Virus record (IMG/VR): IMGVR_UViG_3300030329_003157
Location: 1 to 37,929 of that record
Source of the DNA: a virus
DNA length: 37,929 bases
Reading direction: 5' to 3' (one strand)
A program made the translations under genes and the position numbers. The notes under the pieces are model-generated. The model was not told the origin of the DNA. It was given only the letters and a program-made list of their open reading frames with translations, and searched no databases. Shown piece by piece: positions 6,715 through 28,834 of this stretch (positions are counted from its first letter, which is position 1; the number at the start of each line of letters is the position of its first letter).

Positions 6715-8397
6715 ATGGCAGATTATAGTGGTGATAGCCCAGATACAACAGGAGATTCTTTTCTTCCAAACCCAATAGGAACAGGAAGTTTAAATGGAGA
6801 AAGTAGTGTAAATACTCAAGAAATTAAATCTATAGGTTATAAATCTTCTTCAGATACAGTAAAAGCAACGCAACTTTTATCTATTAGCAAATCAGCTTCA
6901 GATTCCGCAACTAAAACTTCTGATCCTAAAGAAGTTATTATAGAAAATACTGGAAATGTTCCCGTTTTGATAGCTACGGGATATGAAGGATATACAAGTG
7001 ATACAGCCGATGTCCATGCGAATACTGGTGCAATTTATGTTCATTCATTATTAGAACCAGGTGCTACATTAAATCCACCTGTAAGAAGTGTAATAAGTTT
7101 AGCTGCAGCTTCGGATGTAGCTCCTACTGCGGATGGTTTTGCAAATCAATCATTGTATAACCTACATGGAACAGCGGTAGATTTTACAGCTCCAAATGTA
7201 GCTTTAAAAGTAGATTCGGGATGTGAAGTTAAAAATACAACTTTAGCTAATACGAATGATCCTTTAAATTTTGGTGTTGAAGTTTCATCTTCAGCAAATG
7301 CAAAAAAAATACGGGTAGGAGATTACATAAGAGTTGAGAACGAAATATTGAAGGTAATAGGAACTTCTGATGATGATCCAACTGGTGAAATATCAGCAAG
7401 TGGGGATGTAAGATGTGAAAGAGCTCAATTTGGAACTGAAAATGTTTCTCATTCTGGAGCTCCAGACATATATTTCCCCGTATTTAATGAGTATTATGAT
7501 TTTGATAGAGCTTTATCTGGAAGTAGTCAATTAGTGCAGACAGATAGATCGGGAAGATTTAAATCTAGTAATTTTCTGGGATATGGCCGAACAGATGGAA
7601 CTACTCCACATGGAATAACTCCAGGTAGTGTTTTAATCCGCTTTTATTCTCAAGCATACCAAGAAGTAAGGATGGGCTCGGCAACAAATAATATTGAAGT
7701 TAAAGGTACAGATTCTACGCAGTTAGCTGTAAGTACATTATATGGATTTAATTTAACTATTGATGATTCAACAGCAACCTCTGTAACCTTTACTACAGAT
7801 AGTTCCGATGTAACTTTTACAAAGGTTATAGAATTAATAAATTCTTCTCTTGATACTTTAACAAATACAGCGGGAGGAGCTTTATTTGGTTATGGATGTG
7901 AATGTGGCCTTATTGACGGAAATTTAAGGTTTACAAGTACATCTCATTTATTGCCACATGATGGAACAAATGGTTCTCAAATTTTATTAGCAGATAATGG
8001 TGGAAGCGGAACAAATTTATTTAGTGGAAGTGCAGGTTTATTTCCCGATGATGCTTTAATAAATGCTCCAGTACCACCAAAACTACCTAATAAATATTTA
8101 TATGATCCTATAACTTATTCAAAATCGCCAAATATGGATGAATTTGCTTATGATGATGGTAGAGGTAATATTATATCTTCATTTGGATGCTCTGGTAGTA
8201 TTTCGTATGAAACAGGAGCATTTACATTAAATAATGCTCCCGCTAATGCCTGTTTTGAAGTTTCGGTTGCACATAATGGTCCATTTTCAGGTAAAATAGA
8301 TTCAGAACAAGGTGTAAGATGTAATTCAATTATTGATGTATATGGGAACACATTAAATAAATATGCAACAGGAAAAGTTAAAATAACTACAAGGTAG
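6715..8397 (+). CDS. Large beta-rich virion structural protein
   Basis: This 560-residue protein has a good GGAGA ribosome site. Its N-terminus is disordered and Ser/Thr/Asp-rich to about residue 50. A central unit at about 190-250 reads IRVGDYIRVENEILKVIG, then a Cys-Glu-Arg and GT-x-x-x-SH segment. The same GD-x-I, E-x-x-K and R-x-x-x-GT-x-x-x-H order occurs in the next gene at about residues 92-147. Several Cys pairs lie in the second half (YGCECGL, FGCSG, ACFEV). It is probably a major structural component of the head surface or the connector region. I recognise the general type but cannot name a family. Confidence 0.6.
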   Translation: MADYSGDSPDTTGDSFLPNPIGTGSLNGESSVNTQEIKSIGYKSSSDTVKATQLLSISKSASDSATKTSDPKEVIIENTGNVPVLIATGYEGYTSDTADVHANTGAIYVHSLLEPGATLNPPVRSVISLAAASDVAPTADGFANQSLYNLHGTAVDFTAPNVALKVDSGCEVKNTTLANTNDPLNFGVEVSSSANAKKIRVGDYIRVENEILKVIGTSDDDPTGEISASGDVRCERAQFGTENVSHSGAPDIYFPVFNEYYDFDRALSGSSQLVQTDRSGRFKSSNFLGYGRTDGTTPHGITPGSVLIRFYSQAYQEVRMGSATNNIEVKGTDSTQLAVSTLYGFNLTIDDSTATSVTFTTDSSDVTFTKVIELINSSLDTLTNTAGGALFGYGCECGLIDGNLRFTSTSHLLPHDGTNGSQILLADNGGSGTNLFSGSAGLFPDDALINAPVPPKLPNKYLYDPITYSKSPNMDEFAYDDGRGNIISSFGCSGSISYETGAFTLNNAPANACFEVSVAHNGPFSGKIDSEQGVRCNSIIDVYGNTLNKYATGKVKITTR

Positions 8398-8406
8398 GGT
8401 AAAATT

Positions 8407-9636
8407 ATGGCTGTAACTAGTACGATAGAATACTGTAGTGAAAGAGATTTAATCGATACATATCCGCATTTATCGCAATTTTCACTAAAAAAGAGATTGT
8501 ATGGATTCAAAAAAGAAGCAAGTTTAAATAATTGGCAAGATAGTTCTATAGATGCTCATTATTTGCATGGTTCTGGACTATGTACAGAAATATTCTTCAA
8601 TGGTGCAAAATTAAATCAACATGAATATTCAACAGTAGTAGCTTCTACAATAGCAACAAGCAATATAGATGCGGATGATTTAGGAGTATCTGTAGCAGAT
8701 GGAAGTGATTTTGCAACAGGGGATTTAATAAAAATTGGGAATGAGTGGATGAAATTAACAGGGGTTTCAACGAATGCCCTAGCAATGACTAGAGCCATGT
8801 TTCAAACTGTTAATACTCCTCATAAGGTGAATGCGAATGTAAGTATTCAATATGATGCAAGTGCAGGTGATTTACAACCAGGATCAGATGCTTCAAGCTG
8901 GACTTATGACCCAGCTCTTGATTTACTTATAATATATACAGTTAGTTTAGACCCAAATGAAAATATAGTTGAAACAGGTGATGATTGGGCTACAATTAAA
9001 ACTAGATTTATAAGAAAAGCATCAAGATTAATAGAATCGCATTTAGATAGTAGAATGTCAAGGGAAATAATGAAGGATAGGGAAGGAAATTATCCTGCGA
9101 TAATCGTTCATGCTACAGCATTACAAACTATATTATTATTATTAAAAGCCCATGATCCTACAAATGATATAATAGAGCCATTTCAAAGCGAATTAAACGA
9201 AATTCTGGATGGTTTAAAGGCGGGAACTATTGTGCTCCCTACCTCAGTATCCTCAGATAGTTCAAAAGGTGTTATAAGGCAAGTTTTAAGGGGTACAAAT
9301 AGTGATTTATATCCAGTTGAGCTAAAGGGTAATTATCATGGCTATGGCTATGATAATATTAAAGTTAAGGTAACTTTAGGTGGAGTTATAGGAACTTCAA
9401 CTTATTCTGTATGGGTAAAAGATAATGATACTTTAAAAAATAACCAAGTAGTAACAGATGAGAAAATAACGGGTGATTATGATTTGATAACTAGCGGTTT
9501 ATATTTAAGGTGGTCTGGGGATGATGTTGCATCGGCAACGACTACAACAGATGATGAATATGAAATAGAGGTTCATTCTAGCGGTATAAATTCAGATATT
9601 TCATCTGTTGGTTCTATAAGCATGACAAGGAGATAG
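8407..9636 (+). CDS. Head-tail connector (adaptor) protein with inserted beta domain
   Basis: This 409-residue protein starts with IEYCSERDLIDTYPHLSQF, the pattern of small head-tail adaptors, and has the matching helical half much later: WATIKTRFIRKASRLIES at about 194-211 and VHATALQTILLLLKAHD at about 234-250. In typical adaptors (HK97 gp6, SPP1 gp15, Mu gp36 types) these parts are nearly adjacent. Here a roughly 140-residue beta-rich region sits between them, including a GD-x-I, E-x-M, R-x-x-x-x-T-x-x-x-H unit shared with the preceding gene. A C-terminal beta domain from about residue 290 is also extra. It is predicted to ring the portal and accept the tail. Confidence 0.6.
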   Translation: MAVTSTIEYCSERDLIDTYPHLSQFSLKKRLYGFKKEASLNNWQDSSIDAHYLHGSGLCTEIFFNGAKLNQHEYSTVVASTIATSNIDADDLGVSVADGSDFATGDLIKIGNEWMKLTGVSTNALAMTRAMFQTVNTPHKVNANVSIQYDASAGDLQPGSDASSWTYDPALDLLIIYTVSLDPNENIVETGDDWATIKTRFIRKASRLIESHLDSRMSREIMKDREGNYPAIIVHATALQTILLLLKAHDPTNDIIEPFQSELNEILDGLKAGTIVLPTSVSSDSSKGVIRQVLRGTNSDLYPVELKGNYHGYGYDNIKVKVTLGGVIGTSTYSVWVKDNDTLKNNQVVTDEKITGDYDLITSGLYLRWSGDDVASATTTTDDEYEIEVHSSGINSDISSVGSISMTRR

Positions 9637-9637
9637 T

Positions 9638-10099
9638 TTGGCAGTAGCCTATGAAAATATATTTTATGATTATGTAATGAGCCCAATGCGGAATTTATTA
9701 TTTGATGAATTTAACTATGGGAAAATATATATTGCTCCAAATATTTTACACTTAGATAATTTTAGTATAAGAATTTGGGGAGATAGTATAGAAACTGTAG
9801 AAACTTTATCTTCTACATGGCAAAAACAATATAATCTAGGAATTTCTTTATATTGTATCGAGAAAAATCCGCAAGAGAATTTTTATAAGCAATTTTATGG
9901 AGATATTGAACGAATATATCAATTATTATTTGATAATTGTAAAGTAGTAGCAACGACATCTGATTCGATAACACATACTTGGATAGATGGAGTATGTGAA
10001 AGTTTTTTAATTAATGATTTTGAAGAAGGAGAAGAAGAAGTAGAGGGCCTAAATGTATGTAAATTCAATTTTAATTGTAAAGTTATGCGACACTCATAG
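9638..10099 (+). CDS. Probable tail terminator / head-tail joining protein
   Basis: This 153-residue protein starts at a TTG with a clear AAGGAG site about seven bases upstream, one base after the previous stop. Short helices at the N-terminus followed by strands, and the phrase LGISLYCIEKNPQENFYKQFYGD before the long helix at about residues 70-98, fit the size and order of tail terminators (lambda gpU type). Position supports it: just after the adaptor and two genes before the tail tube. No residue is diagnostic, so the call rests mainly on gene order and size. Confidence 0.5.
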   Translation: MAVAYENIFYDYVMSPMRNLLFDEFNYGKIYIAPNILHLDNFSIRIWGDSIETVETLSSTWQKQYNLGISLYCIEKNPQENFYKQFYGDIERIYQLLFDNCKVVATTSDSITHTWIDGVCESFLINDFEEGEEEVEGLNVCKFNFNCKVMRHS

Positions 10100-21658: not shown

Positions 21659-21734
21659 TTAGGATATTCCAAATAAAGCATAATAAATTACTATCGTTAT
21701 GAGAAACTTAAATAAAACAAACAAGGAGCAAACA
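21659..21734 (+). promoter_or_regulatory. Early promoter and leader, copy A (plus strand)
   Basis: An A/T-tract stretch (21623-21660) precedes a weak -35 (TTAGGA at 21659), TAAATT at 21684-21689 as the likely -10, then GTTATGAGAAA and an AAGGAGCAAA ribosome site before the ATG at 21735. The same order of elements occurs upstream of two minus-strand genes (30276 and 31415). The ATG inside GTTATGAG is in frame with the real start in all three copies. Confidence 0.6.
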
Positions 21735-21914
21735 ATGGAAAACAAACATCAGCCGACTGATAAAATGGTTATTAATGCACTTTTGGACAAGATTACATCG
21801 CTTGAACATTCTCTTTTAAAGTCTGAAACTAAAGTGATGTTTCAAGAGGAAGAAATTGTAAAATTAAAACAAGAAAATGCAAACCTAAAACATGAATTGA
21901 AGGAGGTTGCATAA
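21735..21914 (+). CDS. 59-residue early coiled-coil protein
   Basis: This is the first gene of the early operon. The start at 21735 is chosen because AAGGAG lies eight bases upstream; an in-frame ATG at 21699 belongs to the shared leader. Residues 15-55 are heptad-patterned (LLDKITSLEHSLLKSETKV, then QEEEIVKLKQENANLKHEL), so a leucine-zipper-like dimer is likely. The C-terminal KEVA is encoded by the ribosome site of the next gene. The function is unknown; an early host-interaction or regulatory role is inferred only from position. Confidence 0.65.
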   Translation: MENKHQPTDKMVINALLDKITSLEHSLLKSETKVMFQEEEIVKLKQENANLKHELKEVA

Positions 21915-22994: not shown

Positions 22995-23395
22995 AACAAT
23001 TTAATTTATTTAAAAAAGGTGAAGTAGATGATATTGGAGAACAAAAATATTCCTCCAAAATAGAAGCACCAGTTTATACACCTAAAAATAAAAAACCACA
23101 TATTTTTGAATTATGTAATAAAGATAAAACACATAAGTTATTAAGAAAAATAGATGCTTCTAGTTTGCCTATTGAAGAAAAGCAGTTTTTAATGGATGCA
23201 GCAAGAAGGCATAATATATTTGATTATGAGAAGATAGCGGATTATTATGCTCAATCTAGTAGGGAGATGCAGGAACTTATGGAAGAATCTGCTTTAGTAA
23301 TAATTGATTTTGAAAAAGCTATTCAGAATGGGTTTGTAAGACTATGTAGTGAAGTTAAAAATCAATATTTACAGGAATATCAAGATGAGGAATAA
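22991..23395 (+). CDS. Partner protein of the TET-associated-type glycosyltransferase gene
   Basis: This 134-residue protein has a characteristic C-terminal block: FLMDAARRHNIFDYEKIADY then MQELMEESALVIIDFEKAI. From memory, this block recurs in phage proteins encoded next to TAGT-type glycosyltransferases, sometimes attached to ParB-like domains, suggesting a DNA-binding or modification-targeting role. Here it overlaps the glycosyltransferase start by 11 bases, so they are probably translationally coupled. No catalytic residues are evident in the 134 residues. The family role is inference. Confidence 0.6.
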   Translation: MKQFNLFKKGEVDDIGEQKYSSKIEAPVYTPKNKKPHIFELCNKDKTHKLLRKIDASSLPIEEKQFLMDAARRHNIFDYEKIADYYAQSSREMQELMEESALVIIDFEKAIQNGFVRLCSEVKNQYLQEYQDEE

Positions 23396-24236
23396 AGATT
23401 TTGCTATATTTATAATGGTTCATGGAAGGCCAGATAGAATGTGGACCTATAAAAGTTTAAGAAAGCAAGGTTATACAGGAAAGATATTTTTAGTAGGTGA
23501 TGATCTTGATAAAACAATACCAGAATATAAGCTAAAATATGGGGATGAGCTATTAGTATTTGATAAAAAGAAAGCATCTTTAGGAGTGGATTCTGGCGAT
23601 AATAGCGGTGATTTAAGAAGTACATTGTATGCAGCTAATAAAATATTTGATCTAGCAGAAGAACGGGGTATAGAATATTTTTATATAATGTGCGATGATT
23701 ATTATTATTTTGGCTATAGATACGATACGGGAGCTAGAATTATAAAAAATCTTGATAATGTTTTTGATATTATGGTTGATTTTTATAAATCTGTTGATAT
23801 AAAAACTATTGCATTTTCACAAGGGGGAGATCATATAGGGGGCTTTACTAAAATTAAAATGAAAAGGAAGGCCATGAACTCTTTTTTATGTAGCCCAAAA
23901 AGAAGATTTAAGTTTATGGGTAGAATGAATGAAGATGTAACAACTTATACTAATTTAGGAAGTAGAGGAGATATATTTTTTACTTTTACTAATATTCAAT
24001 TAGATCAAAAAGATCACCAGATAGAAAAAAAGGGCCTAACAGATATGTATCTAGATAATGGAACTTATATAAAATCCTTTTTTTCTGTGATGTATAACCC
24101 ATCAAATACAAAAGTTTCAATTATGAATGCAAATAATAAAAGAATACATCATGCAATAAGTTGGAAACATACAACTCCAATGATAATGGATGAAAAATAT
24201 AAAGAGGAAGTTTCGACTGCAAAAAACCTACATTAA
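23385..24236 (+). CDS. TET-associated-type glycosyltransferase (TAGT), DNA base modification candidate
   Basis: This 283-residue GT-A-type enzyme is predicted to add a sugar to a hydroxylated DNA base. Landmarks are FMVHGRPDR-like text near residues 10-18 (seen as FIMVHGRPDRMWTYKSL), KIFLVGDD at 33-40, the metal-binding acidic motif IMCDDYYYFGYR at 101-112, FSQGGDHIGG at 144-153, and RMNEDVTTYTNLGSRGDIFF at 180-199. These match the TAGT family described with TET/JBP oxygenases. The start at 23385 is preferred over the upstream ATG, which lies deep inside the partner gene. No TET/JBP oxygenase or hydroxymethylase gene is visible in the genome, so the substrate base is unclear. Confidence 0.75.
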   Translation: MRNKDFAIFIMVHGRPDRMWTYKSLRKQGYTGKIFLVGDDLDKTIPEYKLKYGDELLVFDKKKASLGVDSGDNSGDLRSTLYAANKIFDLAEERGIEYFYIMCDDYYYFGYRYDTGARIIKNLDNVFDIMVDFYKSVDIKTIAFSQGGDHIGGFTKIKMKRKAMNSFLCSPKRRFKFMGRMNEDVTTYTNLGSRGDIFFTFTNIQLDQKDHQIEKKGLTDMYLDNGTYIKSFFSVMYNPSNTKVSIMNANNKRIHHAISWKHTTPMIMDEKYKEEVSTAKNLH

Positions 24237-24470: not shown

Positions 24471-24606
24471 TATTGACAGAGCCTTGCATTTAGATATTAA
24501 GGATTTACATAATATGGAACAAAGAAGAAGGGGCCAAAAGTCTAATTTACAAGACTTCTTTGAAGAACTATTGGCTAAAGGAGTTAAAGAATGGCTCAAT
24601 CTATAG
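24400..24606 (+). CDS. Ribbon-helix-helix-like DNA-binding protein
   Basis: This 68-residue protein has a Lys-rich start, then one strand (QQVNFSID, residues 19-26), helix A (RALHLDIKDLHNMEQ) and helix B (KSNLQDFFEELLAKGVKEWL). This is the strand-helix-helix order of Arc/CopG-type dimeric DNA-binding proteins. It is the only evident candidate regulator in the genome. A good AAGGAG site lies about ten bases before the ATG. It overlaps the nuclease gene start by 16 bases. It could regulate its own operon or be a small accessory of the nuclease. Confidence 0.5.
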   Translation: MKEEKKKIILRNDPAKKRQQVNFSIDRALHLDIKDLHNMEQRRRGQKSNLQDFFEELLAKGVKEWLNL

Positions 24607-25496
24607 TATATACTAAAGAACAACTAGAAAAGGCATCATACCCCGATCTACTAGAAAACAATCTTGTATCATCACCTATACCGCTTAAAAGGCTAGATAC
24701 AAAGCATGGTAGAACTTATTACCAGAGAAATGTAGCGGTTGAAGATAGAGTTTATATGTATAGCTCAACTACTATACTTGATAATGTATTAGACAAGGGT
24801 TTAGGGTTTAAGATGTGGCTAGGTAATGCTAAAAGTTATGATGATGCTATGCAGTATGCTTCAGCTAGGGCAGAAGTTGGTAGTATGACCCATGCCCTCT
24901 GTATGTACTTAATTTGGGGGGAAACTATTGATTGTAGGGATGGATTCCTAAATGAGGATTCACTTAATACTACATTAGGAAAAAGAACTATTATACCAAT
25001 ACCAGATGAAGTTAAATTAAGGCTACAAGCATTTATAGATTTTTGTAAAGAGTATAAACCAAAATCTATTGCTACAGAGATTAGTCTTTATACAGATGAT
25101 AGGCTAGAAGATGGAAGTTTATTATACCCCTGGGCGGGAACCGCTGATAATATAATGAAGATAGACGGGAAGCTATGGCTCATTGATATAAAAACAGGTA
25201 AAGAGTATAAGAATTATGAACTACAATTAACATCATATAAAATTTTATGGGATCATTTATTCGGAAGTGAGCTTGGTAAAATTGATGAAATGGCTTGTTT
25301 ATATTTAAATGCTAGGGGAAAGTTTAAACTTGTAAAGTATAAATTTGTTCCAGAAGATTGGTTTACAATATATAGATTGTTTGAATATAATTTAAAAGAT
25401 AAGCGGGGAAATCTGCCAAAGATTGTAGAAAAAGAACCGCTACCAGATATTTACACATTAAGAGAAAAAAAGGAGAGCAAAGATGTCGTTAAATAG
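24591..25496 (+). CDS. RecB/Cas4-family PD-(D/E)XK exonuclease
   Basis: This 301-residue nuclease shows all conserved motifs of the RecB-type fold: GSMTH at 97-101, Glu163 in ATEISLY, Asp186 in AGTADNI, Asp199 and Lys201 in LIDIKTGK, and the Gln212-x-x-x-Tyr216 motif in ELQLTSY. It is predicted to be a metal-dependent DNA exonuclease working on phage DNA ends in recombination or replication, or degrading host DNA. It lacks the four Cys of the iron-sulphur Cas4 type as far as I can see. The SSB-like gene follows with a 14-base overlap, a usual pairing in phage recombination modules. Confidence 0.85.
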   Translation: MAQSIVYTKEQLEKASYPDLLENNLVSSPIPLKRLDTKHGRTYYQRNVAVEDRVYMYSSTTILDNVLDKGLGFKMWLGNAKSYDDAMQYASARAEVGSMTHALCMYLIWGETIDCRDGFLNEDSLNTTLGKRTIIPIPDEVKLRLQAFIDFCKEYKPKSIATEISLYTDDRLEDGSLLYPWAGTADNIMKIDGKLWLIDIKTGKEYKNYELQLTSYKILWDHLFGSELGKIDEMACLYLNARGKFKLVKYKFVPEDWFTIYRLFEYNLKDKRGNLPKIVEKEPLPDIYTLREKKESKDVVK

Positions 25497-25977
25497 TGAA
25501 AATCAGTTAAAGTTCAAAGAAGGAGCTACAACTGAACCATTAACAATAACAAAAGCAGGTTTTGAGGAACTACCATTTGGTAACAAATTTGTAGTTCATA
25601 TAAAACCATTAATAACAGGTGAAACTTATTTTTTGCCATCACCTGGATTAGAAAAAAAGCTAAAAGAAGAAAATGTTGATATTAGCGATCAAATAACTAT
25701 AGAGAAGGTTGCAAAAAGTGAACAATATCCATATGGTTATTTTAGTGTGTCGGTTGTTCAAAAAGGCGGTGTAGCAAATAGCCCTGTTGGTGCGGGTTTT
25801 GCTCAAAAAGATGCTAAACATGAATCTGTTGAAAACTTTGAAAAGCAATTTGATTCAAAAGATGATAAAATGGCATTACATGAATTAACTATAAGAGTTG
25901 AAAAACTTGAAAGTATAGTTGCAGCATTATCAGGTAAAGAGGTTGAAAAGTCTGATGATGAAGCTATACCATTTTAA
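25483..25977 (+). CDS. Single-stranded DNA-binding-like protein
   Basis: This 164-residue protein ends in SDDEAIPF, the acidic tail with terminal hydrophobic residues that SSB proteins use to recruit partners. The first 95 residues are strand-rich, compatible with an OB fold (GNKFVVHIKPLITGETYFL, later PYGYFSVSVVQKGG). A helical segment (HELTIRVEKLESIVAAL) before the tail may oligomerise. It has a strong AAGGAGA site inside the end of the nuclease gene. The SSB call rests on the tail, fold pattern and neighbour; the core is too diverged to be certain. Confidence 0.65.
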   Translation: MSLNSENQLKFKEGATTEPLTITKAGFEELPFGNKFVVHIKPLITGETYFLPSPGLEKKLKEENVDISDQITIEKVAKSEQYPYGYFSVSVVQKGGVANSPVGAGFAQKDAKHESVENFEKQFDSKDDKMALHELTIRVEKLESIVAALSGKEVEKSDDEAIPF

Positions 25978-25989
25978 TTAAATAAATAA

Positions 25990-26061
25990 GGGGGGCGGTT
26001 GCTCCTAATTCCAGACATTTCTCATAACAAATTAATAGTCTGGTTGCTTACAGCCCCCCTA
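25990..26061 (+). ncRNA. Hairpin-rich leader element S1
   Basis: AGGGGGGC at 25990-25997 pairs perfectly with GCCCCCCT at 26054-26061, and CCAGAC at 26012-26017 pairs with GTCTGG at 26039-26044 inside it. The base composition is far more GC-rich in the arms than the flanks. It precedes the ATG at 26071, which has no ribosome site. The 3' side (ATAGTCTGG ... CCCTATC ... ATG) resembles the 3' side of element S2 at 26674-26702. Alternatively, a TTG at 25999 would make this region the N-terminus of the next protein. Confidence 0.55.
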
Positions 26062-26070
26062 TCCATTACT

Positions 26071-26388
26071 ATGATAAAAAAATTAGAAGAAAAAGTAAAG
26101 AATATATTGATAAAATTTCCAGAAACTAGAGATAATGACCAACAATTAGTTTCTTTTGTATGGTGGCATCATCTAGGTACAGAAAGAGTAAAAAAAATGT
26201 CGGGATGGGATTTATTAACAATATTAAGTAGGAAAGAATTACCTAATATTGTATCTATATGGAGATGTAGGCAAAAACTACAAGAACACAATGCAGATCT
26301 GCGAGGTGAAAAGTGGGCGGATAGGCAAAAGCATAGCAAAGTAGTTAAAAAGGAAATTAAAGAATGGAATGGGACCCTATTTCAATAA
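26071..26388 (+). CDS. Conserved-type phage early protein, 105 residues
   Basis: The protein has an N-terminal helix, then LVSFVWWHHLG, then MSGWDLLTILSRKELPNIVS and WRCRQKLQEHNADLRGEKW. The last pattern (S-x-x-S-I-x-R-x-R-x-K-L-Q-E, then LRG) occurs in small phage proteins of unknown function with a winged-helix-like look. The start at 26071 has no ribosome site. An in-frame TTG at 25999 with AAGGGG upstream would add 24 residues encoded by element S1. I prefer the ATG because the extra part has unusual codon use: by hand count 10 of its 24 codons end in G or C. Confidence 0.6.
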   Translation: MIKKLEEKVKNILIKFPETRDNDQQLVSFVWWHHLGTERVKKMSGWDLLTILSRKELPNIVSIWRCRQKLQEHNADLRGEKWADRQKHSKVVKKEIKEWNGTLFQ

Positions 26389-26519
26389 TGAAGTGTATTG
26401 GATTTGTAATAATAGCTTTTTATTTAGGAGCATTTTTTGGAATGATTGTTATAGGTTTATTAAGGAAAGATAATCTAGAGCAAGAGGAGAAGGATAAAAG
26501 CAGGGGGTCCTCTAGATGA
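26388..26519 (+). CDS. 43-residue single-pass membrane protein
   Basis: This short gene begins in a TAATG overlap with the preceding stop. Residues 3-25 (CIGFVIIAFYLGAFFGMIV is the core) form one membrane helix, followed by a charged tail (RKDNLEQEEKDKSRG). Tiny inner-membrane proteins of this shape are common in phage early regions; functions include superinfection exclusion and holin regulation, none shown here. Its last 22 bases overlap the 5' arm of element S2. Confidence 0.6.
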   Translation: MKCIGFVIIAFYLGAFFGMIVIGLLRKDNLEQEEKDKSRGSSR

Positions 26520-26699
26520 GTATTGTTTTGGGCTACTCATGGGAATATATAGGACCGCACTCCTTTGCATCCCATATTACCCCCTGCTTACAATTCCAAA
26601 GCTATAAGAAAATAATAGGTATGCTCCGCAGAGGCCTTATAGCTTGGAAGTCGGAGGATATGGGAGCTATGCTTATAGTGTGGCTCCCTATCTTATAAT
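26498..26699 (+). ncRNA. Roughly 200-nt structured element S2
   Basis: Stems read directly from sequence: P1 AAGCAGGGGGT (26498-26508) with ACCCCCTGCTT (26579-26589), 11 pairs. Inside it lie P2 ATGAGTA (26516-26522) with TACTCAT (26534-26540), and GGGA (26541-26544) with TCCC (26570-26573) capped by AGGA/TCCT (26551, 26561). P5 is TTCCAA-A-GCTATAAG (26594-26608) with CTTATAGCTTGGAA (26636-26649), 14 pairs with one bulge. P7 is 26655-26667 with 26683-26694, about 12 pairs with one bulge, containing GGGAGC/GCTCCC. A 60-residue reading frame (26516-26698) runs through it with ATGA and TAATATG joints, but 29 of its 60 codons end in G or C by hand count, against 12 of 74 in the next gene. RNA structure, not protein, best explains this, though both could apply. 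Confidence 0.65.
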
Positions 26700-26924
26700 A
26701 TGGCAAAGAAATTAGCATTAAAGATATATATAGATGATCTTACGGGTGATGTAGAGGAAGTAGCTTGTTCTAAAAGATTTGATGAAGAAGGGCCATTATT
26801 TAAGATTGATGTATTAAAAGAATCAAAATTGGCTTTAGAATATATATATAAATATGAAAGAGATAAGTTTTTAGAAGAATTGGTTATAGAAACGGGCCAA
26901 GATGGTAAAATAGCTAAAGCATGA
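26700..26924 (+). CDS. Early protein, 74 residues
   Basis: This protein starts with strands (KKLALKIYIDDLTGDVEEV) and continues with a charged helix (LALEYIYKYERDKFLEELV). There is no ribosome site before the ATG; the sequence just upstream is the 3' arm of element S2 and ends TATAATATG. A GGAGG at 26653 could instead serve a nine-codon frame (ATG at 26669) that ends one base before this start, so re-initiation is possible. The function is unknown. Confidence 0.6.
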   Translation: MAKKLALKIYIDDLTGDVEEVACSKRFDEEGPLFKIDVLKESKLALEYIYKYERDKFLEELVIETGQDGKIAKA

Positions 26925-27245: not shown

Positions 27246-28196
27246 ATGGCAAGAAAAAGAATGATCCATCCAGGAATATGGACAGATGAAAAGTTTTTAA
27301 CACTAAAAAATAATGAAGCAAGGTTATTATTTATAGGAATGATGAACTTTGCAAATGATGAAGGTATATTTAAATACAAACCAATAAGCCTAAAAGCACA
27401 AGTTTTACCATTAAGTAGTTCTAAATTACCTATCATTGAGGACTACATTAGGACTATGTTAGAACTAAAGTTATTAGAAAAAGGCCATGATATTGATGGA
27501 ACTAAATTATTAAGATATACTAATTGGCATACATACCAGAAAATCAATCATGCAACCCCAAGTAAATATACGTTTACTAAAGAGGAAATAAAGGATTCAA
27601 TTAATACTAATGTAGAAGTAAGTGAGGATTCAAGTAAGACTACTTCACAATATAATATAAATAAAAGTAATATAATTAAAGATAATACAATTAAAAGTAA
27701 TACAAGTTCAAAGAAAAATCAAGATTTTACATTTGAACAATTCTATGATCTTTATCCAAAGAAACAAGCTAAAGAAAAAGCACAGAAATCATTTAAAAAG
27801 CTAAAAAAGGCCGAAATAAAGGCCTTAAAGGTTGGATTAGATAGTTGGGTGGCATATTGGGAAGAAAGTTCCACAGATGCACAATTTATCCCATTACCCG
27901 CTACTTGGATAAATCAAAAGAGGTGGAATGATGATATCCCTACTGTAGAAGCGGATAAACCTAATAAGTTTAAGTCGGATTTAGATAAAGAGATATTTAA
28001 CCGCCATAATAACCAAATAGAACAAGATAAGCGGATGAAGGCCTACATGGAAGAAGCTACTAAAAATGCTAGTGATGAAATACCCGATTTATTAGAGGGC
28101 CTTAAAAAGCATAAGGAGGATAATGAGAAGCCACTTAAAGGCCTTATTGGACAGGTTGTTGCCAAGTCTAAAGCTAATACCAGTGCAGATGGATAA
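27246..28196 (+). CDS. Replication initiation / replisome organiser protein
   Basis: This 316-residue protein has two domains joined by an Asn, Ser and Lys-rich linker (about residues 118-155). The N-terminal 110 residues (KRMIHPGIWTDEKFLTL, then LLFIGMMNFANDEGIFKY) are a winged-helix domain as in phage replisome organisers. The second part, FEQFYDLYPKKQAKEKAQKS at about 159-178 and PLPATWINQKRWNDDI at about 218-233, is typical of the helicase-loader half of such proteins. It is predicted to bind an origin and load the host replicative helicase. No phage polymerase or helicase is visible, so host machinery is probably used. It has a GGAGA site. Confidence 0.8.
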   Translation: MARKRMIHPGIWTDEKFLTLKNNEARLLFIGMMNFANDEGIFKYKPISLKAQVLPLSSSKLPIIEDYIRTMLELKLLEKGHDIDGTKLLRYTNWHTYQKINHATPSKYTFTKEEIKDSINTNVEVSEDSSKTTSQYNINKSNIIKDNTIKSNTSSKKNQDFTFEQFYDLYPKKQAKEKAQKSFKKLKKAEIKALKVGLDSWVAYWEESSTDAQFIPLPATWINQKRWNDDIPTVEADKPNKFKSDLDKEIFNRHNNQIEQDKRMKAYMEEATKNASDEIPDLLEGLKKHKEDNEKPLKGLIGQVVAKSKANTSADG

Positions 28197-28644: not shown

Positions 28645-28834
28645 ATAGTAAGTAAATAAGTAAGTGTTTATGGGTTAATTGACCCCACAAACAATCAAAT
28701 ATATCATTGATATTTAGTTTACATAATATCAGTTATCGGTATAACGGGTATATGGGGGGATTAAATTGCTTTGCCTTCGGGGTCAATCATACGAATTTTT
28801 ATAAAAATTAACATTAATGGTTTTATATTATGGC
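28645..28834 (+). other. Untranslated structured region before terminase small subunit
   Basis: This holds no gene. ATTGACCCC at 28678-28686 is inverted as GGGGTCAAT at 28779-28787. Between them are ATATCATTGATAT (28701-28713) and GTTATCGGTATAAC (28732-28745), each self-complementary, and the near-direct repeats CGGTATAA and CGGGTATA. A perfect AT palindrome, AATTTTTATAAAAATT, follows at 28794-28809. Candidates are a terminase recognition site, an origin, or a structured 5' leader; position by terS favours the first. Confidence 0.5.

Follow-up and report, generated by a model that had tools for sequence, protein, structure and literature searches.

An element of about 200 nt (26498-26699) carried by an uncultured tailed phage is very probably a conserved structured RNA, a judgement drawn from its comparison with one counterpart in a diverged relative. 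The two phages showed three predicted domains (A, B, and C) whose order, position, and strand are the same and which are maintained through compensatory changes, without a conserved protein frame. Our preferred reading, to which we give a probability of roughly one half, is that the element controls ribosome start on the next gene in cis through a split ribosome-binding site.

The window, by which we mean the whole stretch of DNA analysed, is an IMG/VR record of 37,929 bases with 32% GC. Its opening 98 bases reappear exactly at its far end, as would be expected for a complete, circularly closed tailed-phage genome. The element sits in an early rightward block, between the gene for a small membrane-type protein, whose 3' end overlaps the 5' arm of domain A, and an ORF followed by a replication initiator and then a Holliday-junction resolvase (Table 1). 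Short direct repeats within the replication initiator gene (27585-27716) are possibly origin iterons. A TET-associated glycosyltransferase (PF20691) encoded at 23349-24233 suggests modified DNA bases, and the relative has an m5C methyltransferase right after the element. No DNA similarity of the window to named phages was found, a TerL search of genome contigs gave no match, and searches of viral contigs with the neighbouring ORFs, the exonuclease, and the replication protein found no close relatives. The upstream ORF had weak relatives in named phages; the single annotated neighbourhood read, that of Butyrivibrio phage Arawn, was not syntenic.

Table 1. Features of the element, its surroundings, and the sequences compared with it (window coordinates unless another locus is named)
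Feature	Coordinates	Strand or block	Remarks
Exonuclease	24591-25493	rightward block	
SSB-like protein	25483-25974	rightward block	acidic DDEAIPF tail
Sister element E1	25986-26062	+	GGGGGGC/GCCCCCC hairpin; fills the gap from the SSB-like gene to the SD-less gene 26071
ORF	26071-26388	rightward block	without SD, after E1
Upstream gene, small membrane-type protein	26388-26519	+	43 aa; 38% identity over 29 aa to L038:8247-8333
Domain A	26498-26589	+	branched interior closed by 11-bp outer stem (26498-26508/26579-26589), a perfect inverted repeat
60-codon open frame	26516-26698	+	runs through the element; judged not a gene (codon score)
Domain B	26594-26649 (arms 26594-26608/26636-26649)	+	hairpin, 6+8 pairs, one-base bulge, 27-nt loop
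GCTCC in B loop	26623-26627	+	can pair with GGAGC 26663-26667, 5' arm of C
Candidate Shine-Dalgarno (SD) GGAGG	26653-26657	+	-9.5 kcal/mol with anti-SD; 42 nt 5' of ATG 26700
Domain C	26655-26694	+	hairpin, 6+12 pairs, one-base bulge; ends 5 nt before ATG 26700
Downstream gene	26700-26924	+	74 aa; 48% identity to L038:9649-9798; without proximal SD
L038, outer stem of domain A	8339-8349/8409-8419		TTAAGCAGGGT...ACCCTGCTTAA
L038, hairpins after domain A	8423-8490 and 8495-8523		
L038, m5C methyltransferase gene (PF00145)	start taken as 8528		from first motif LDLFSGIGG
Anabaena subtropica 70-bp repeat	L048, L049, L051, L054, L057, L067, L070-L073, L076, L077, L080		

Folding analysis confirmed much of the architecture that an earlier note on this DNA had described from the sequence. 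The perfect outer stem was present (100% complementary), as was a 14-pair stem with one bulge, now domain B. The last stem, put there at about 12 pairs with one bulge and ending six bases before ATG 26700, has its one bulge but is longer (18 pairs), with 5 nt left between its end and the ATG, and the three-way-junction interior was predicted by folding of the window but gained little support from the relative. Perfect inverted repeats of at least 11 bp around a 30-110 nt loop occur at five sites in the window and two in L038, the locus that holds the relative's copy, with the element among each. The element had a minimum free energy (MFE) of -75.4 kcal/mol against -57.2 +/- 4.6 for its shuffles (z -3.9), none of the 300 being as low, and the L038 copy gave a z of -4.6; for a longer span around the element the z was -2.2 (4 of 200 shuffles). 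Among all 200-nt segments on both strands, the one starting at 26501 had the lowest MFE. Local GC content was 0.43-0.44 against 0.32 for the genome, in line with the GC-rich arms noted before, and GC skew drops at the element from about +0.5 to about 0.

The relative was found through TerL searches as a 32,174-base contig (G013, IMG/VR contig 3300030098_005255, loci L037 and L038), with a TerL identity to the window phage of about 75%. The two phages are syntenic over the genes that begin with the exonuclease and end with the membrane-type protein, after which L038 has the element, the m5C methyltransferase gene, and then the homologue (9649-9798) of the window's downstream gene. Between them the downstream gene has changed and the element has been retained, and since the gene that follows differs (a 74-aa ORF in one, an m5C methyltransferase in the other), the RNA is not tied to one gene. 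A riboswitch specific to one gene was ruled out on the same ground, and the idea of an inserted hairpin element became unlikely with the element occupying one and the same gene junction in both of these diverged phages.

Covariance models built on the window sequence alone were run unfiltered against L038 in full (17,174 bases, both strands). The best match of the domain A model (R2) was 8339-8419 (19.2 bits, E 0.0049; runner-up E 0.27), and that of the model for B and C (R1) was 8423-8530 (14.9 bits, E 0.035; runner-up E 0.74). These top matches are adjacent, in order, on the same strand, and at the syntenic gene junction; two adjacent first-rank matches so placed are very unlikely to arise by chance, though each E-value is modest. 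A search with default filters and the single-sequence models missed the L038 homologue, and no further copies were found with R1 and R2 in 25 other sources.

Comparison of the two copies revealed compensatory changes of the kind that the earlier note had named as support for RNA. In the model-fitted alignment, 13 of the 32 pairs of B and C were changed on both sides and none was broken (B, 6 of 14; C, 7 of 18), figures to be read with the facts that the alignments were fitted to the window's structure, thus leaning towards structure, and that two sequences lie below R-scape-type statistics. All 61 cells across B and C pair, and the partner-sliding control gave at most one two-sided change. Model-fitted alignments were used because MAFFT alignments misplaced stem C; in a hand alignment of B and C, the stem cores held only compensatory or preserved pairs. 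Domain A had eight compensatory pairs, two of them in the outer stem, with one broken and seven gapped pairs, and its interior is less certain than its outer stem. With a syntenic homologue that keeps three domains through such changes, a frame that scores as non-coding, and no Rfam match, the suggestion of a possible new structured RNA has held up.

A small protein encoded by the 60 codons would be one alternative. The start of this frame overlaps the upstream stop (ATGA), a single base separates its end from the next ATG, and just 25 of 2,000 shuffles produced a frame of such length from an ATG. However, its codon score, on a scale set by the codon usage of long genes, was -0.268 per codon, at the off-frame mean (-0.276) and under every in-frame 60-codon window (mean 0.251, minimum 0.001). 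No relatives of it were found among named phages, the matching frame in L038 ends after 32 codons, and every reading frame across B and C is disrupted there. We therefore regard a protein gene as extremely improbable. The G/C-ending codon counts in the earlier note were reproduced (GC3 0.48 in the frame, 0.16 in the next gene). It had also set out beforehand that homologues keeping the protein while breaking the stems would speak against RNA; the opposite was seen, as the stems are retained in the relative and the frame is not. The element might also work as DNA, with hairpins of the single strand that serve in replication or priming close to the gene for the replication initiator, a proposal that would suit its position between the SSB-like gene and the initiator and the local change in skew. 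We consider this very unlikely: the pairs of B and C include seven G-U wobbles on the + strand, which also folds better than its complement in both phages (-75.7 against -68.7 in the window, -63.9 against -61.2 in the relative), and for these two reasons a + strand RNA is favoured over DNA. A DNA element would moreover leave the alignment to the start codon and the SD unexplained.

Searches for known RNA classes gave no identity for the element. Neither the window nor the loci of the relative gave a match at gathering score to any family of Rfam release 15, on which basis known Rfam riboswitches, ribozymes, and introns were rejected; a sub-threshold match to DUF2815 RNA (18.6 of 41.2 bits) lay outside the element. 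An intrinsic terminator was rejected on the tail after C, TATCTTATAA, which has no T-run and is only a weak match to the consensus, and a tRNA or tmRNA was rejected for want of an ARAGORN match. Matches to the outer-stem pattern in 10 viral and 40 genome stretches were attributed to chance (mostly coding-like or GC-rich sequence) or to an Anabaena repeat. The latter, a dispersed 70-bp repeat of Anabaena subtropica FACHB-260 in nearly identical copies whose ends resemble CAGGGGAAG/CTTCCCCTG, has no relation to the element of the phage.

The start codon at 26700 had been described as lacking a ribosome site, which is correct for the proximal position (-1.5 kcal/mol) but overlooks the GGAGG lying 42 nt upstream, beyond hairpin C. 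Its L038 counterpart, AGAGAGGTGA, binds the anti-SD at -12.4 kcal/mol and is also spaced 42 nt from the AUG, and the stretches directly 5' of both corresponding starts bind it poorly there (0.6 and 0.2 kcal/mol). Fourteen genes of the window are preceded by a gap of at least 8 nt, and a proximal SD was present in 10 of them; the four without one are those at 26700 and 26071, which follow the two elements, that at 110, close to the end of the record, and that at 28817. The terminase small subunit gene also has no SD, and 5' of it lies a 9-bp stem, ATTGACCCC...GGGGTCAAT, around about 90-100 nt (28677-28787), with an unexceptional overall fold (z -0.6).

With C folded, the SD-to-AUG spacing would fall from 42 nt linear to about 15 nt in the window and 11 nt in L038, the 15-nt value requiring that C open in its lower part. 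Because lower C pairs with the SD bases (mean unpaired 0.39), C must partly open for the split-site geometry in the window. The duplex between the B loop and the 5' arm of C was calculated at -11.9 kcal/mol in the window and -13.3 in L038, and was matched by 23 and 11, respectively, of 1,000 shuffled loops. The pairing of GCTCC with GGAGC is thus a possible pseudoknot or switch, and its predicted presence in both phages suggests two alternative states.

We propose that the element is a non-coding structured RNA within the early mRNA, acting in cis between two genes; of the three roles suggested earlier (regulatory leader, abundant small RNA, inserted hairpin), a cis-acting leader fits best. 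Hairpin C, standing between the SD and the SD-less AUG, would fold to bridge a split ribosome-binding site. More speculatively, the start codon would be reachable with C folded and out of reach with B and C pseudoknotted, and domain A would probably serve as a stable cap or as a binding platform for some ligand. A weakness of this split-site reading is that the bridge requires C alone, leaving A and B unexplained.

The closest known arrangement is that of T4 genes 38 and 25, in which a hairpin shortens the SD-AUG spacing from 22 to 5 and from 27 to 11 nt, respectively (PMC3014915). In both phages compared here, too, an SD beyond normal distance and a hairpin between it and the AUG were found (42 nt, C), and the effective spacing of 11 nt in gene 25 compares with a predicted 11 or 15 nt here. 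However, T4 has one small hairpin over 22-27 nt, whereas here the distance is 42 nt and two further conserved domains precede. In the window phage the SD is also predicted to pair partly into C.

In the genome scan no z was lower than that of the sister element E1 (-6.1), and the top match of its window-only model (R3) in L038 was the syntenic 7834-7914 (E 0.035). Two blocks in the E1 loop, TTGCTCC and TTTCTCATAAC, are complementary to the leader GTTATGAGAAA...GGAGCAA of three other genes, so that E1 may act in trans in the window phage; these antisense blocks were not seen in L038. The leaders lie at 21696-21740 (+), 30315-30280 (-), and 31451-31419 (-) and are preceded by TAAATT-like -10 sequences. 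Stretches of this type are about 90% identical in another locus (L006), exceeding the identity of the TerL gene. A further hairpin, ATTAGGGTGGTGGTT...TTACTACCACCCTAT at 548-578, has a stem resembling E1 (R3, E 0.0004).

Other RNA functions were weighed against the split-site mechanism. An independent phage small RNA, with A-C cut from the operon transcript and targeting RNA or proteins of host or phage in trans, would explain equally well that the element is not bound to one downstream gene, as its compact, stable, multi-domain fold is kept whatever gene follows, and the complementarity of the E1 blocks to three leaders points the same way. Excision, however, would strip the downstream genes of their sole SD, no similar complementarity to leaders is seen in the main element, the E1 blocks were not seen in L038, and C is not followed by a T-run; we hold this alternative to be unlikely, though worth keeping in view. 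Somewhat less probable is a processing or stability site, whose hairpins, as RNase III targets or as barriers to exonucleases, would set upstream versus downstream gene levels. Long hairpins do fill intergenic gaps at two places in the same operon, as long bulged hairpins lie between early genes in T7. The RNase III sites between the cistrons of T7 early mRNA, however, consist of one hairpin each, followed by the SD of the next gene, and show no multi-domain conservation. Plain cleavage needs neither three conserved domains, nor the recurring B-loop/C-arm pairing, nor the 42-nt SD spacing, and a cut within C would deprive the next gene of its ribosome site. A transcription-modifying RNA acting in cis on RNA polymerase, as in HK022, would likewise be a conserved folded RNA within an early operon of a tailed phage. 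The HK022 putRNAs, however, are about 70 nt with two stem-loops and lie either immediately 3' of the early promoters or some 270 nt away from them (PMC9378689); the present element differs, having about 200 nt and three domains several kb past the likely early promoter (21.7 kb), and we see very little prospect for this explanation.

To our knowledge, the catalogue of structured RNAs in dsDNA phages is poor, and the present element, spotted in raw sequence and backed by compensatory changes in one relative, is new to Rfam. If the split-site reading is true, a rare device of T4 would be extended to a further group of phages, in the form of a much larger RNA that may contain its own switch, and would offer a directly testable model for phage early-gene timing. 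A bolder idea, which we put forward tentatively and consider rather unlikely, is that multi-domain RNAs of this kind, lying between phage genes, form a new family and stand in for the normal SD leader, with A as stable cap, B as sensor hairpin, and C as bridge. Such RNAs would be modular, the same RNA standing ahead of different genes in related phages, and capture of the C arm by the B loop would switch the start of whichever gene follows on or off.
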